Assembly (NCBI GenBank): GCA_022791995.1
Contig: JAAWAD010000084.1
Coordinates: 1 to 38,605 of the forward strand
Direction: 5' to 3'
Source of the DNA: Lawsonibacter sp.
GTDB lineage: Bacteria; Bacillota; Clostridia; Oscillospirales; Oscillospiraceae
DNA length: 38,605 nucleotides
Of the stretch, positions 5,573-11,804 are shown one piece after another. Position numbers and translations under genes: made by a program. Position 1 is the stretch's first letter. Each line of letters starts with the position of its first letter. A model generated the notes under the pieces. The model worked only from the letters and a program-made list of their open reading frames with translations. It made no database searches and had not been told where the DNA came from.

Positions 5573-6418
5573 CTATCCCGCCTTCCGCAGCAGGAAGGTC
5601 AAAGCAAACCAGGCGGACAGGTACAGGGTGATGGAGGCGCCAGCAGAGGCTCCCCAATAGTAGGAGGTCAGTAGCCCGGCCACACCGGCGGCCACGGCTC
5701 CGGCCAGGGAGAACAGGTGGTACTGCCGCACATTGCGGGCGAGGTTCCGTGCAGCGGCCCCAGGGAGGACCAGCAGGGAGTTAATGACCAGCAGACCCAC
5801 CCAGGTCATGGACAAGGTGACGACCACAGCGATGGCCGCGGAGAACACAGCCTCCTGCCAGAAGACCTGGATGCCCCGGCTGTCTGCCAGGGCGGGGTGG
5901 ACGGCGGAGAGCATCAGCTGGTTGAAGGACAGCAGCCACAGGCCCACTACCAGCAGCAGGATCAGGGCCAGAAGACCGATTTTCGCTGGCTCCACGGACA
6001 GAATGTCGCCGATTAACAGAGCGTTGAACCGGGTGAAGGAGCGGCCGTTCAGGGTAGACAGGAAGATGCCCAGGGCCACAGCGGTGGAGGAGAACACGCC
6101 GATCACTGTGTCGCTGGCCAGGGCGGAGCGCCGCTTTACCAGATTGAACAGCAGGGCGAAGAGGATAGCAAAGAGGACAGCGGCCCAGGTGGGCTCCTGA
6201 AAGCCGCACAGGGCTCCGATGGCCATACCGGTAAAGGCGGAGTGGCCCAGTGCGTCGGAGAAGAAGGACATCCGGCTGTGAACGACCATGGTGGAAAGGA
6301 TGCCGAACAGGGGACAGATCACCAGCACGGCCAGCAGGGCGTGCTTCATAAAGTACATGGAGCCCGGCTGAGCCCACTCGAATGGCAGCAGATCGACCAG
6401 TGTATACCAAAGGGTCAT
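5573..6418 (-). CDS. znuB: Zinc ABC transporter permease
   Basis: This is the membrane channel subunit of a metal-type (ABC-3 family) importer, 281 residues with about eight hydrophobic segments. Typical landmarks are the early DALGHSAFTGMAIG motif that contacts the ATPase, GVFSSTAVALGIFL, and the late TWVGLLVINSLLVLPGAAARNLA stretch. It overlaps znuC by 4 bases and is the last gene of the three-gene operon. The histidine-rich partner lipoprotein points to zinc; manganese is possible for the family. Confidence 0.88.
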   Translation of the reverse strand: MTLWYTLVDLLPFEWAQPGSMYFMKHALLAVLVICPLFGILSTMVVHSRMSFFSDALGHSAFTGMAIGALCGFQEPTWAAVLFAILFALLFNLVKRRSALASDTVIGVFSSTAVALGIFLSTLNGRSFTRFNALLIGDILSVEPAKIGLLALILLLVVGLWLLSFNQLMLSAVHPALADSRGIQVFWQEAVFSAAIAVVVTLSMTWVGLLVINSLLVLPGAAARNLARNVRQYHLFSLAGAVAAGVAGLLTSYYWGASAGASITLYLSAWFALTFLLRKAG

Positions 6419-7218
6419 GGTGTGCCCCCCTTTCCCATGCGCAGATGAAAAGTATCATAAAATTCCGGGGAGGACAGGACCTCCTCTGGGGGGGCCGCCT
6501 TCAGCACCCGCCGGTTGAGGAGAATGACCTGATCGGCGAACTGGCTCAGGGCGGCAAAGTCGTGGGTGGACAGGAAGATGGACAGGTCATAGGCGGTGCG
6601 CAGCTCGTCCAGCATCTCCAGCAGCTGGTGCTCGCCCTCGATATCCACCCCGGACAGGGGCTCGTCCAGAATCAGGATGTGGGGCACCGGTTCCAGGGCC
6701 AGGGCCAGCAGCACCCGCTGGAGCTGGCCTCCGGACAGCACTCCCATGGGCCGGTCCAGCAGCTCCTCCCCGTGGACCCGGGCCAGACAGGCGGCGGCCC
6801 GATCCCGGTATTTGGCCGGGACGGGCAGCCACACCGGCCATTTTGCTGTGGCGGCGGTGAAGAAGTCCAGTACCGACACCGGATCTCCACGGTCAAAGCT
6901 GGGGGCCTGGGGCACATAACCCACCAGGGGACGCTTTCCCTCCGTCACTGTGCCGTCAGCCAGCCGGATGGCCGGCCCGCCGGCAGGGGAGAAGGTGATG
7001 GAACCCTTGTAGCTGGTCTGCCCCAGGATGCTGCGAAACAGAGTAGATTTCCCGGCACCGTTGGGGCCGATGAGGGCCACAATCTCTCCACAGTGGAGGT
7101 GGAAGGATACGTCCTCCAGAATGGTGTCCCCCTCCAGTTTTACGCTCAGGCCCTCTAATTTCAGGCAGCAACTGCCGGCACACCCGGCGGACAGCTTGCC
7201 ATGCTTGATCTTTCTCAT
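6415..7218 (-). CDS. znuC: Zinc ABC transporter ATP-binding protein
   Basis: This is the cytoplasmic ATPase of the metal importer, 267 residues. It shows Walker A GPNGAGKST, the signature LSGGQLQRVLLA, Walker B HILILDEPLSGVD and the switch His in STHDF. The first 15 or so residues are Cys/Lys-rich and not conserved in the family. It overlaps both neighbours by 4 bases, so the three subunits are translationally coupled. Confidence 0.92.
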   Translation of the reverse strand: MRKIKHGKLSAGCAGSCCLKLEGLSVKLEGDTILEDVSFHLHCGEIVALIGPNGAGKSTLFRSILGQTSYKGSITFSPAGGPAIRLADGTVTEGKRPLVGYVPQAPSFDRGDPVSVLDFFTAATAKWPVWLPVPAKYRDRAAACLARVHGEELLDRPMGVLSGGQLQRVLLALALEPVPHILILDEPLSGVDIEGEHQLLEMLDELRTAYDLSIFLSTHDFAALSQFADQVILLNRRVLKAAPPEEVLSSPEFYDTFHLRMGKGGTP

Positions 7219-8183
7219 CCCAGCGGTACCACCCTTTCTCCAGCAAACCCGTTGATCATGGTCTCCAGATTATCATGATAAAGGTTTGAATAATTTTCCA
7301 GCAGACCGAATGCGGAATCTGCCTCGTCCGGGCCATCCATCAGCATAGACAACTGGGCTACCTGACACCCCGTCTCCCGGGCAATGGCGTTGGCTGTGGC
7401 GTCAGAGCCGTTGATTTCGGTGAAGATGATCGGAATGTTGTACGCCTTCACCAGTGCGCTGATCTCCACAATTTCGCGGGCGCTGGCCTCGCTTCCCGCC
7501 TCCTCCTCAATGGAGGCCAGAAGGGGCAGGCCGCAGGCCCGGGCGAAGTACTGAAAGCCGTCGTGAAAGGTAATCAGGCCGGGATACGTGCCCATCTGAG
7601 GGCGAAACTCCATCATCAGATTTTCGATGGTCGTCTGGCAGGAGAGCAGCGTCATATCCGCATTCCGCGTGTTGGTTTCGTACACCTCTGCATAGTGCGG
7701 GTCGGCGAGTACCAGCTGATTGCGCAGGTTGGCGGCCATAATCCGGGCGTTCGCCGGATCCATCCAATAGTGGGGGTCCCAGTGGCCGTGGTCATGTCCG
7801 TCGTGGTCGTCCCCGTCGTGGTCATGGGACAGGTTTTCCAGCAGGTCGACTCCCATTGAACAGTCAATGACTACCGCGTCAGAGGTCTCCAGAGCGGCCT
7901 CCAGGAACTCCTCTAGCCCCGCTCCGTTGAGCGCAATGATATCCGCCCGGTCCAGCTTCTTCATGTCCGCCACGGTAAGGGTGTAGTCGTGCAGGCAGCC
8001 GCCGCTGCTGGTGTCCAGCCGCTCTGCGGCCACCCCCTCTACCCCCTCTGTCAGGCTGGAGACAAGGAGATAGATGGGGTAGGTGGTACACACAATACTC
8101 AGCCGGGGTTCTTGTTTCTTCCGGGCGCAGCCCGGGAGAAGAAGGAGCAGGACCAGCCAGAGGACAGGGATTGTTTTTTTCAT
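7215..8183 (-). CDS. znuA: Zinc-binding lipoprotein of the ABC importer
   Basis: This is the extracellular metal receptor, anchored by lipid: the signal peptide ends in the lipobox LLPGC about 18-19 residues in. It is a cluster A-I (ZnuA/AdcA/TroA) protein of 322 residues. A histidine/aspartate-rich loop (SHDHDGDDHDGHDHGHWD) precedes the metal-ligand motif DPHYWMDP. Further likely ligands are in TFHDGFQYFAR and the late FTEINGSDATANAIARETG. The His-rich loop is typical of zinc rather than manganese receptors. First gene of the operon, with its own promoter divergent from the crotonase gene. Confidence 0.92.
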   Translation of the reverse strand: MKKTIPVLWLVLLLLLPGCARKKQEPRLSIVCTTYPIYLLVSSLTEGVEGVAAERLDTSSGGCLHDYTLTVADMKKLDRADIIALNGAGLEEFLEAALETSDAVVIDCSMGVDLLENLSHDHDGDDHDGHDHGHWDPHYWMDPANARIMAANLRNQLVLADPHYAEVYETNTRNADMTLLSCQTTIENLMMEFRPQMGTYPGLITFHDGFQYFARACGLPLLASIEEEAGSEASAREIVEISALVKAYNIPIIFTEINGSDATANAIARETGCQVAQLSMLMDGPDEADSAFGLLENYSNLYHDNLETMINGFAGERVVPLG

Positions 8184-9160: not shown

Positions 9161-9622
9161 GTGGACCACAGGGGCTATATGGCCCAGGCTCTGGAGCTTG
9201 CCCGACAGGCCGTCTCCACTGGGGATGTACCGGTGGGCTGCGTCATTGTCCGGGACGGGGAAATTATTGGCCGGGGGCGCAACCGCAGGGAGGAGCGGGG
9301 AGACGCCCTGGCCCACGCCGAGCTGGAGGCGATCCGGGAGGCCTGCGCCCATACGGGGACCTGGCGGCTTCACGGCTGCACCCTGTATGTCACGCTGGAG
9401 CCCTGCCCCATGTGTGCCGGAGGGATCCTCAATGCCCGTATCGACACCATTCGATACGGGGCCCGGGACCCGAAGGCGGGGTGCTGCGGTTCGGTGCTCA
9501 ACCTCTTCGAGGAGGCCTTCAATCACCGGCCCCGCATCTACCAAGGGCCTCTGATTGAACCCTGCGAAGCTCTGCTGCGGAACTTTTTCGAGGGCCTCCG
9601 TGGACGGCCCCGGGAGATTTAA
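9161..9622 (+). CDS. tadA: tRNA adenosine(34) deaminase TadA
   Basis: TadA converts adenosine 34 to inosine in the tRNA-Arg anticodon. The 153-residue protein has the zinc/catalytic motif AHAELEAI (HAE) and the PCXXC motif LEPCPMCAGGIL. The GTG at 9161 follows the preceding stop without a gap and gives MDHRGYMAQALELA, the usual TadA N-terminus; an ATG at 9179 with AGGGG upstream would remove it. No separate Shine-Dalgarno precedes the GTG, so translation is probably coupled to the crotonase gene. The last codons overlap the first conserved box of the small-RNA locus. Confidence 0.95.
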   Translation: MDHRGYMAQALELARQAVSTGDVPVGCVIVRDGEIIGRGRNRREERGDALAHAELEAIREACAHTGTWRLHGCTLYVTLEPCPMCAGGILNARIDTIRYGARDPKAGCCGSVLNLFEEAFNHRPRIYQGPLIEPCEALLRNFFEGLRGRPREI

Positions 9623-9635
9623 AGCTTTTGTAACA
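9616..9635 (+). repeat. 20-bp box, copy A
   Basis: GATTTAAAGCTTTTGTAACA is identical to 9835-9854. It overlaps the tadA stop codon and ends 7 bases before the -35 of the first small-RNA promoter. The same spacing in both copies suggests a protein-binding or UP-like element. Confidence 0.7.
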
Positions 9636-9642
9636 TTTGAAG

Positions 9643-9672
9643 GTGACTTTTTTAATAATCCCCCGCTATACT
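9643..9672 (+). promoter_or_regulatory. Promoter of small-RNA candidate A
   Basis: GTGACT (9643-9648), 18 bases, TATACT (9667-9672). The arrangement is the same as at 9862-9891, with exactly 31 bases from the 20-bp box to the -10 in both copies. Confidence 0.5.
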
Positions 9673-9678
9673 AAAGAG

Positions 9679-9760
9679 CGTAAGGCAAGAACATCTTTTC
9701 ATTCTATCCTCCAATTTCTTGAAAGGCTGGTGCGAGATTCGCACCAGCCTTCCTCCTTGC
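9679..9760 (+). ncRNA. Small-RNA candidate A
   Basis: A predicted transcript of about 75-85 bases starting some 7 bases after the -10. The 5' half is unstructured and pyrimidine-rich, with TTTTCATTCTATCCTCC, whose UCCUCC could pair with Shine-Dalgarno sequences. The 3' half is a perfect 13-bp hairpin (9723-9735 with 9739-9751, loop GAT) followed by CCTCC rather than a T run. No open reading frame of note. Support is the parallel layout of copy B. Both ends are inferred. Confidence 0.45.
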
Positions 9761-9834
9761 AAGGGGCTCGCCTCTGTCTGAGAACGAAGGGCGGTCTCCG
9801 GGCTGCCCCTGTATGCTGCCTTCTGACCGAAGAA

Positions 9835-9854
9835 GATTTAAAGCTTTTGTAACA
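9835..9854 (+). repeat. 20-bp box, copy B
   Basis: Identical to 9616-9635. It ends 7 bases before the -35 of the second small-RNA promoter. Confidence 0.7.
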
Positions 9855-9861
9855 ATTCGGG

Positions 9862-9891
9862 TTGGATTTCTTAATATCTTTTCGGTAAGAT
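9862..9891 (+). promoter_or_regulatory. Promoter of small-RNA candidate B
   Basis: TTGGAT (9862-9867), 18 bases, TAAGAT (9886-9891), aligned with the promoter of copy A. Confidence 0.45.
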
Positions 9892-9897
9892 AAGAAT

Positions 9898-9985
9898 CGC
9901 AAGAGACAGTTCGTTTCATTTTAATCCTCTTTTTCAGCAATAGGCCCCGAACGCTTTGGAGTTGGCGTTCGGGGCCTATTGTATT
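9898..9985 (+). ncRNA. Small-RNA candidate B
   Basis: Paralogue of candidate A. The pyrimidine-rich segment GTTTCATTTTAATCCTC is again followed by a strong hairpin, here 16 bp perfect (9939-9954 with 9965-9980). The hairpin starts 47 bases after the -10, against 50 in copy A. The stem sequences differ completely while the box, promoter layout and TTTCATT..A.TCCTC segment are kept, which points to selection on the single-stranded part. Confidence 0.45.
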
Positions 9986-10057
9986 CTGTAGGGCTTTAGC
10001 GGTTGTTTTGGGAGCATTTAACTGTGTCAATGGCCAGAACAATCGTCAGGCAGTACA

Positions 10058-10083
10058 GAGCGCCCCCTTTCCTGGGGGCGCTC
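10058..10083 (-). terminator. Hairpin after the AGCS symporter gene
   Basis: GAGCGCCCCC (10058-10067) pairs perfectly with GGGGGCGCTC (10074-10083), 5 bases beyond the symporter stop. There is no T tract on either side, so it may act as an RNA 3' end protector or a weak terminator. Confidence 0.5.
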
Positions 10084-10088
10084 CGAAG

Positions 10089-11471
10089 TTATTTCTGCTT
10101 GTTGAAATAATCCTTGGTGATGGACGCGGCCACACTGGACAGAGCCAGCAGGGCAACCAGGTTGGGGATGGCCATAGCGCCGTTGAGGGTGTCGGCAATA
10201 TCCCACATGAGCTGGCCGGAGCCAGTGGCGCCCACAATGCAGAACAGAACGAAAATTACCTTATAGGCCAAAATAAAGGTCTTGTTGTCCCGGGCGATAT
10301 AGCCCCAGCACCGCTCGCCGTAGTAGCTCCAGCTGAGGATAGTGGACAGGGCAAAGAACAGCAGGCTGATCTGGATGACAGTGCCGCCGATGGTGCCGGG
10401 GAGGATGGTATTGAAGGCCGCCACAGCCGCTGCACCCTTGGAGGAGAAGGCGTCCAGACCGCCGGCGGTATCCAGCACACCGGAGAGGATTACGGCAAGG
10501 GAGGTGATGGTGCAGATGACGATGGTGTCAATGAAGACCTCAAACACGCCCCAGATGGCCTGCTCGCAGGGCTCCTCGGTGGAGGAGGCGGCGTGGGCGA
10601 TGGGGGCGGAGCCCAAGCCGGCCTCGTTAGAGAAGACGCCCCGGGCGAAGCCATTCTTCATGGCGACCATAATGGCATAGCCAAAGATACCGCCGCCCAC
10701 AGCCTCAAAGCTGAAGGCACTGGAGAAGATAGCGCCCAGCGCGGCGGGGATCTCCGTGGCGCGCAGTACAATTACACCAATGCCGGCCAGGATATAGAAG
10801 ATGGCCATAAAGGGCACCAGCAGAGAGGTGACCTGACCGATGCGCTTCACGCCGCCGATGACCACGATGGAGACCAGGACCATCAGGACGATGCCGGTCA
10901 CCAGGGGATCCAGGCCGAACAGGCCGCTCATGGCTCCGGCAATCTCACTGGACTGGGCGATGTTGCCAATGCCGAAGGAGGCCAGACCGCCCAGAACAGC
11001 GAAGATGGCAGCCAGCCACTTCCAGCTCTTCCCTAGGCCGTTTTCGATGTAGTACATGGGGCCGCCCTCGTAGGCGCCGTTTGCGCCGGTGTTGCGGTAT
11101 TTCATAGCCAGGGCGATCTCGCAGTACTTGGTACACATACCGAAAAAGGCGGATACCCACATCCAGAATACGGCGCCCGGTCCGCCGGCAAAGATAGCGC
11201 CGGTGACGCCGGCGATGTTGCCGGTGCCCACCGTGCCGGCCAGGGCGGTGGTCACGGCCTGGAAGGGGGACAGGTTGCTGCCGTGGTCCTTATCCTTCTT
11301 CTGGAACAGGGAGCCGATGGTGTTCTTCATGATGAAGCCGAACCAGCGGACCTGAATCCAGCCCGTGCGGAAGGTCAGGTAGATGCCGGTGCCCACCAGA
11401 AGGACCAGCATGATGGGGCCCCAGACAAAGCCGTTGATCGCGTTGTTGACCTTTGTGACAATTTCTAACAT
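10089..11471 (-). CDS. Sodium:alanine/glycine symporter, AGCS family
   Basis: An inner-membrane carrier of the alanine-or-glycine:cation symporter family, 460 residues, with about ten hydrophobic segments. Family landmarks are GTGNIAGVTGAIFAGGPGA, GGPMYYIENGLGK and FSNEAGLGSAPIAHA. The ATG at 11471 (MLEIVTKVNNAING) has AGAGG upstream; in-frame codons further upstream run through the riboswitch and are not coding. The glycine riboswitch before it supports glycine as a substrate. In such operons the carrier is often an exporter or scavenger switched on by excess glycine; the direction here is not known. Confidence 0.92.
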   Translation of the reverse strand: MLEIVTKVNNAINGFVWGPIMLVLLVGTGIYLTFRTGWIQVRWFGFIMKNTIGSLFQKKDKDHGSNLSPFQAVTTALAGTVGTGNIAGVTGAIFAGGPGAVFWMWVSAFFGMCTKYCEIALAMKYRNTGANGAYEGGPMYYIENGLGKSWKWLAAIFAVLGGLASFGIGNIAQSSEIAGAMSGLFGLDPLVTGIVLMVLVSIVVIGGVKRIGQVTSLLVPFMAIFYILAGIGVIVLRATEIPAALGAIFSSAFSFEAVGGGIFGYAIMVAMKNGFARGVFSNEAGLGSAPIAHAASSTEEPCEQAIWGVFEVFIDTIVICTITSLAVILSGVLDTAGGLDAFSSKGAAAVAAFNTILPGTIGGTVIQISLLFFALSTILSWSYYGERCWGYIARDNKTFILAYKVIFVLFCIVGATGSGQLMWDIADTLNGAMAIPNLVALLALSSVAASITKDYFNKQK

Positions 11472-11508
11472 TGCTTTTTCCTCTCTTTTCCTCACACATT
11501 TTGAGTGG

Positions 11509-11547
11509 ATAAAACGAATGGGGAGCACAGCCCAAAGGTGCGCTCCC
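11509..11547 (-). terminator. Expression-platform hairpin of the glycine riboswitch
   Basis: On the minus strand a 9-bp stem (11539-11547 with 11521-11529, one G-U pair) is followed by CATTCGTTTTAT. It lies between the second aptamer and the symporter start, where a regulated terminator is expected. Confidence 0.5.
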
Positions 11548-11601
11548 ACAGCAATGACACCCCACGCCCTGACACGACCGCAGCCGGCCCCAGGGAGGGG
11601 G

Positions 11602-11768
11602 AGTGTCTCTGTCCTTTTGCCTGAGAGATTGGCGGGAGAACCCGCTTTGCACCTTCGGCCCCCGTATACACGGGTGTCTCCAGAGTGCCATCCATCCGCA
11701 GTCCTGGTACCTGAGAGCGTTACACCGTCGGTGGGCCCTCCCGAAGGGGGCCGCTTCTCTGCGGACAT
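11602..11768 (-). promoter_or_regulatory. Tandem glycine riboswitch
   Basis: Two glycine aptamers are read on the minus strand. The first (about 11765-11695) is closed by TCCGCAG / CTGCGGA and contains ACCGACGGTGTAAC followed by CTCTCAGGTACCAGGAC. The second (about 11690-11604) contains GCCGAAGGTGCAAAG and CTCTCAGGCAAAAGGACAG. These are the conserved cores of the class. The tandem layout in front of an AGCS carrier is the classic context. Confidence 0.9.
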
Positions 11769-11804
11769 CATCTGGCCTATTCGATTGTCCATTTTATGGA
11801 GACA

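Follow-up and report, generated by a model that had tools for sequence, protein, structure and literature searches.

The window analysed here is a stretch of 38,605 nucleotides from a Lawsonibacter sp. genome that is about 80% complete. It carries two same-strand units, hereafter U1 and U2, downstream of a gene with Pfam deaminase families (9161..9622, +), presumably tadA, which is a syntenic neighbour outside the RNA units. Both lie between convergent genes (tadA and a symporter gene) and have in common a 21-bp box, a -10 element, a short leader and a perfect hairpin. The box, AGATTTAAAGCTTTTGTAACA, is a putative activator site present letter for letter at 9615..9635 (U1, +) and 9834..9854 (U2, +); the original prediction had rightly called it identical in the two units, at a length of 20 bp that falls one short. 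Exactly 31 bases separate it from the -10 elements TATACT (U1, 9667..9672, +) and TAAGAT (U2, 9886..9891, +), as had been stated, and a downstream half-site lies in each gap (TTTTTTAATA, 9648..9657, +, 22 bp past the first half-site; TTTCTTAATA, 9867..9876, +). The predicted small RNAs are about 80 nt (U1, 9680..9760, +) and about 86 nt (U2, 9899..9984, +) long and score 89 bits with covariance model R1 and 105.2 bits with model R2, respectively, the window being among each model's own sequences. Their leaders start with GTAAGG (9680) and GCAAGAG (9899) and each contains CATT and TCCTC within a pyrimidine-rich segment, which begins at 9698 in U1 (TTTCATTCTATCCTCC) and at 9914 in U2 (TTTCATTTTAATCCTC). 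Within these segments we delimited the seeds UUUCAUUCUAUCCUCC (9698..9713, +) and UUUCAUUUUAAUCCUC (9914..9929, +). The leaders are followed by terminator-like hairpins, at 9723..9751 (+) in U1 (arms 9723-9735/9739-9751, 13 bp, then a pyrimidine tail) and at 9938..9981 (+) in U2 (arms 9938-9954/9965-9981). Of the perfect stems of 13 and 16 bp described earlier, the first was recovered as such, and the U2 arms measure 17 bp.

Simple consensus rules detect these elements only in part. A promoter scan called a promoter at U1 and none at the -10 of U2, which is identified from the window sequence and by comparison. A terminator rule demanding 5 T in 8 left the U1 hairpin uncalled; its two terminator-like calls compare with an expectation of 1.4, and one falls within the U2 hairpin, where the T-run is weak in the window.

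We characterised the promoter by comparison, using 159 distinct sites that passed a consensus filter. The resulting position weight matrix (PWM) contains ATTTAA-N5-TTGTAACA followed by TTT.TTAACA, the latter conserved and positioned within the -35/-10 spacer, and contains no good -35; the -35 with an 18-base spacer proposed previously is thus not the conserved part. The distance from box to core (PWM end to GCAAG) was 22 bp in 142 of the 159 sites, and the autocorrelation of the PWM was highest at a lag of 22 bp, 11 bp being a secondary local maximum. Such an 11/22-bp register is that of the tandem half-sites bound by OmpR-family regulators. An OmpR-family response regulator bound to these half-sites may accordingly be what activates the U1 and U2 promoters. 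When the PWM was scanned over the window and 800 kb from each of two further genomes (G007 and G363, stretches that exclude their own sRNA loci), the U1 and U2 sites scored 60.4 and 58.9 bits and the best other sites 0.0 (window), 13.7 (G007) and 8.9 (G363) bits. A 17-bp version of the box occurs exactly in the own genome only at U1 and U2, and three further matches with 3 mismatches equal the control number. Across nine genomes, 26 matches with at most one mismatch were found versus 6 for the reversed control; 17 of them, including all 12 exact ones, were at sRNA genes and nine elsewhere. On these counts the box is largely private to these sRNA genes. Two of the nine boxes elsewhere, each with one mismatch, precede a gene for an OppA-like lipoprotein in G301 and G363, which represent two genera (L209 and L213, around 1501). 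In G363 this box has no third half-site and does not rank among the 14 sites that score best with the full PWM in the 800 kb containing it, so the gene's membership of the regulon is doubtful.

Among close relatives, BLASTN with positions 9600-9995 returned the own genome and 48 of 60 genomes of the same genus, with no match in the remaining 12 or in any of 38 genomes of other families. From the 49 matching genomes we kept 30 loci, the own one and the 29 best matches. Median identity to the window, available for 28 of these 29 relatives (L035 gave none), was 0.97 and 1.00 for the U1 and U2 cores, 0.93 for both boxes and 0.77 for tadA DNA, versus 0.66 and 0.63 for the hairpins, 0.61 for the spacer and 0.57 for downstream DNA. 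The expected conservation of box and leader segment was thereby borne out; box, promoter and seed are mostly kept where the locus is found. In alignments of 28 U1 (A1) and 27 distinct U2 (A2) sequences from the kept loci, whose rows were picked by regexes holding most of the seed, the cores were invariant or nearly so. The U1 seed, with its UCCUC and CAUU, was identical in 28/28 U1 units of L009-L038 and the U2 seed was near-invariant, and a box-only listing of the same loci agreed, revealing no U1 or U2 overlooked by the seed regexes. The GTAAGG start of the window's U1 is exceptional, the other 27 of the 28 aligned units having GCAAGG. The hairpin stems are variable and their changes compensatory, with two-sided changes in 7 of 21 predicted pairs for U1 and 11 of 23 for U2. 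Pairs predicted within the leaders never or hardly vary and so provide no evidence. Outside the 30 kept loci, another genome of the window's genus (G011; L210, around 1501, -) has, behind tadA, a U1 that has diverged and whose seed is altered to CATCTGAATCCTCC.

We also determined how far the units extend across the family and order. In the covariance search of Oscillospiraceae suggested at the outset, model R2 found matches in 96 of 400 genomes (E ≤ 0.001), representing 42 of 106 genera; ten of the 96 belong to the window's genus, and the letters were inspected for part of the 96. Across the order, model R1 gave matches in 21 of 394 genomes, comprising 12 in the family, three of genus g223 in another family (f13) with the same promoter layout and a variant seed, and six weak ones outside the family, of which the one inspected resembles a bare terminator, the other five being in G069, G082, G512, G577 and G671. 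The g223 loci (L076-L078) show an sRNA-type promoter layout with the segment UUUUUCUCCCUCUAAUUC. Weak matches at L073, L090, L091 and L067:223 resemble bare terminators and were rejected as false positives. An exact scan for the U2 core yielded 97 stretches (L095-L191), the genera named being Flavonifractor, Pseudoflavonifractor, Intestinimonas, Lawsonibacter, Flintibacter, Colidextribacter and Galloscillospira. Relatives of Flavonifractor, Pseudoflavonifractor, Intestinimonas and Lawsonibacter are common gut bacteria. Over loci L009-L191, a regex requiring GCAAG, CATT and TCCTC, so that both seed parts are present by selection, identified 184 distinct units, 172 of them with the box. Two units were found on 66 locus strands, one on 49 and three on one, with a spacing of 154-215 bp in 67 of 68 cases and 700 bp in the other. 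The EPC.MC motif of tadA lay upstream of 146 of the 173 units having at least 1 kb of upstream sequence. In sister genera the commonest seeds were CUUUUCAUUUCAUUGUAUCCUC for U2 and CUUCUUUUCAUUCUAUCCUC for U1. Carriage on mobile elements was dropped as an explanation, since phages and plasmids gave no match to the units at E 1e-5.

By sequence comparison, the units thus have their own promoter, a terminator, a conserved leader and no conserved ORF, as expected of trans-acting sRNA genes. We consider it likely that U1 and U2 are paralogous trans-acting sRNA genes, in which an activator-dependent promoter would drive a leader that blocks the Shine-Dalgarno (SD) sequence and AUG of target mRNAs, followed by a terminator hairpin. 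This agrees with the earlier proposal of sibling trans-acting sRNAs with an anti-SD seed, which is the reading best supported by promoter architecture, leader conservation, hairpin compensation, tandem duplication, family-wide spread and the fit of the seed to Met-Lys starts, all seen in comparison. In the transcript, a leader some 35 nt long would precede a terminator hairpin of the intrinsic type. The UCCUC seed put forward originally is present, and the seed is wider than that, since the core combines UCCUC with CAUU and is complementary to both SD and AUG. Pairing of these two parts with the SD site and AUG of a target may block translation initiation, and solute-binding lipoproteins of nutrient transporters may be prominent among the targets. 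The predicted probability of being unpaired exceeded 0.5 for UCCUC in 131 and for CAUU in 146 of the 184 units, and the predicted UCCUC accessibility was 0.62 versus 0.61 for shuffled leaders. Pairing of a UUGGAG loop of U2 with the U1 seed was also considered and dropped, as the loop is absent in L020 and L028.

The seed-based target prediction called for at the outset was carried out in an unbiased energy test on predicted SD-bearing starts (gene starts heuristic) in G007 and G363, over 800 kb per genome (n = 567 and 462). Compared with shuffled seeds that retain UCCUC, the seeds preferred Met-Lys (MK) over non-MK starts, to a degree reached by 1 (G007 U1), 6 (G007 U2), 6 (G363 U1) and 1 (G363 U2) of 200 shuffles. 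No preference for lipoproteins over other MK starts was detected in the same test (91, 113, 75 and 19 of 200 shuffles; lipoprotein classes of 11 and 9, some miscalled, e.g. an iron-sulphur-like and an ABC-ATPase-like protein). These results support tuning of the seed to SD plus AUG-AAA and make a lipoprotein regulon a lead.

Pattern searches did bring up lipoproteins. Complementary to the U2 seed of sister genera, the pattern AGGAN{1,6}AATGAAATGAA matched 20 times across 12 genomes (none for the reversed control); ten matches were U2 itself, and eight of the ten others were lipoprotein genes as judged by eye. A stricter pattern gave 22 matches in 35 U2-positive genomes, 18 of them lipoproteins by regex (eight LivJ-like by eye; three being one orthologue), whereas its permuted control gave 4 matches and no lipoprotein. 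In 35 genomes without detected U2, 11 matches included 5 lipoproteins, a lower share (Fisher's test, P = 0.049; 0.11 once the one orthologue was merged). This control set, made up of 23 R2-negative genomes of the family and 12 other-family genomes without a BLASTN match, is not clean, because genus g98 has R2 matches in other species. The best Pfam names of eight candidate products were NMT1_3 (two), Peripla_BP_6, SBP_bac_5, ABC_sub_bind (two), Peripla_BP_2 and Bmp. An exact U1 complement was abandoned as a target rule, having given nearly nothing (2 non-self matches in 14 genomes). Taken together, a specificity for lipoproteins beyond Met-Lys starts is suggestive by pattern and unsupported in the energy test.

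The best single candidate target is predicted to be the sole pattern match in the own genome, an NMT1_3 solute-binding lipoprotein that we take to be of the TAXI type. Its start and the own U2 have a predicted energy of -28.5 kcal/mol, reached by none of 2000 shuffled seeds (mean, -12.0), with 16 contiguous pairs, a further 9 past a bulge and another 2 on the opposite side. The G213 and G325 orthologues (80-83% identity, residues 59-350) retain AATGAAATGAA, all three having been selected by the pattern. LivJ-type starts, a class chosen for its pattern matches, were tested with one common sister-genus U2 seed for all 20 U2-positive genomes and the controls. They averaged -22.9 versus -16.0 for shuffled seeds, the fraction of shuffles being at most 0.05 in 13 genomes. 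The selection is circular for eight of the 20 (G309, G256, G377, G410, G213, G276, G325 and G246), which all reached that level, as did five of the other 12 (G278, G301, G363, G112 and G171); the start used for G161 is not LivJ-like. In six genomes without detected U2 the values were -17.8 versus -15.5 (two of six at ≤ 0.05), and in the window's genus, with its own seed, -14.7 versus -12.7 (none of four). A ZnuA-type zinc-binding lipoprotein (PF01297) is encoded in the window itself at 7215-8183 (-), adjoining an ABC-ATPase-like ORF (6415-7218, -); its start and the own U2 have a predicted energy of -19.5 kcal/mol.

The target data also bear on the rival that survives best, namely that the RNAs exist but work differently, by titrating a protein or, as anti-SD mimics, by titrating ribosomes or mRNAs globally without specific repression. 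The seed does resemble an anti-SD, the preference in the unbiased test is for MK starts in general and not for specific genes, and the 5' end GCAAGAGACAG is conserved about as strongly as the seed in the listed units. However, individual starts pair far better with the seed than with shuffled versions, and U1 and U2 retain different seeds within the same genomes, so that we regard such titration as rather unlikely. A more far-reaching version of the sRNA reading, to which we give limited credence, is that an ancient Oscillospiraceae sRNA pair under a dedicated two-component system co-represses the solute-binding lipoproteins of many nutrient transporters, the seeds and their targets co-evolving from one genus to another. 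If true, this pair would be a Gram-positive gut analogue of GcvB. The likeness to GcvB of E. coli, compared by function alone and on part of its literature, is that it regulates genes for amino-acid uptake, as we propose for U1 and U2. GcvB has another seed type and depends on Hfq.

A second rival reads the conserved segment on the opposite strand, where GGAGG..ATGAAA would serve as SD and start codon for tiny minus-strand genes (MKRCSCL.., MKRTVSC..) whose leaders would be the hairpins. Reverse-complemented, both seeds do read as a well-spaced SD with ATG AAA, and the leftmost matched GCAAG and the SD-nearest ATG share one common phase in 150 of 184 units, a count that is weak either way because different GCAAG copies are mixed. 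The resulting ORFs are nevertheless erratic in length, with a stop within 3 codons in 59 and within 16 codons in 94 of the 184 units, and the commonest sister-genus U2 gives ATG AAA TGA. The C-termini of the predicted peptides vary between species, the U1 core of L036 contains a one-base insertion, and core conservation covers all codon positions. Moreover, the conserved order of box, -10, leader and hairpin indicates plus-strand transcription. In view of the erratic lengths, the differing C-termini and the L036 insertion, we judged antisense mini-genes very improbable. It is harder still to credit that the hairpins merely terminate tadA and the convergent symporter gene, between which they sit, and that the promoters serve nothing functional, as leader conservation of 97-100% and a promoter box are unexpected of bare terminators and 21 of the 27 units without an upstream tadA motif carry the box.

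Returning to paralogous trans-acting sRNAs, we compared U1 and U2 with known families. Rfam 15 contained no family at gathering score for either unit, and only sub-gathering matches, none near gathering, occurred in 9500-10100 at E ≤ 10, in keeping with the original statement that no known family matches. The LhrC RNAs of Listeria have an Rfam model. The sibling RNAs of Neisseria, a Gram-negative genus (NgncR_162/163 and the meningococcal siblings), are alike in being metabolism-linked in the portion of the literature drawn on, their sequences being compared via the Rfam search only. A search by title found nothing on base-pairing sRNAs of Flavonifractor, Pseudoflavonifractor, Intestinimonas or Lawsonibacter relatives, and the main text of a catalogue of structured RNAs from human microbiomes names none of Flavonifractor, Oscillospir- and tadA, although the supplementary tables may contain the loci unnamed (PMC8040213).

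The closest parallels come from two other groups, as described in the available parts of the respective reports. The streptococcal csRNAs are CiaR-dependent siblings in which an unpaired segment pairs with SD and AUG, and their promoters carry TTTAAG-N5-TTTAAG ending 10 nt before the -10 (PMC3091779). U1 and U2 resemble them as sibling RNAs with an SD and AUG complement, found in all 28 U1 units above, and with direct repeats in an 11-bp register upstream of the -10; they differ in clade and promoter, having ATTTAA-N5-TTGTAACA plus a third half-site (PWM of 159 sites, ATTTAA-N5-TTGTAACA...TTTTTTAACA) instead of the CiaR repeat (PMC3091779). LhrC1-5 of Listeria are LisR-dependent, number five or more copies, carry redundant CU-rich sites, pair at the SD and repress oppA (PMC4132741, PMC5880928). 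Likenesses are the multicopy siblings, CU-rich SD pairing, response-regulator control and oppA or other surface-protein targets, regulator and targets being predicted in our case, while the copy number and redundant CU-rich sites differ and there is no sequence match (PMC4132741, PMC5880928). As the csRNA promoter definition failed and no Rfam match was obtained, we assign U1 and U2 to what is probably a separate new family whose mode of action would be like that of csRNAs and LhrC. With the family in 42 of 106 sampled genera and its seed explicit, post-transcriptional control becomes directly testable in these bacteria, and seed divergence can be compared with target divergence between genera. 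Elsewhere in the window, the only matches at Rfam gathering are two of RF00504 that form a tandem glycine riboswitch (11607-11771, -); it lies in the 5' part of the longest mechanical ORF at 10089-11792, which is AGCS symporter-like and whose real start is probably further in.
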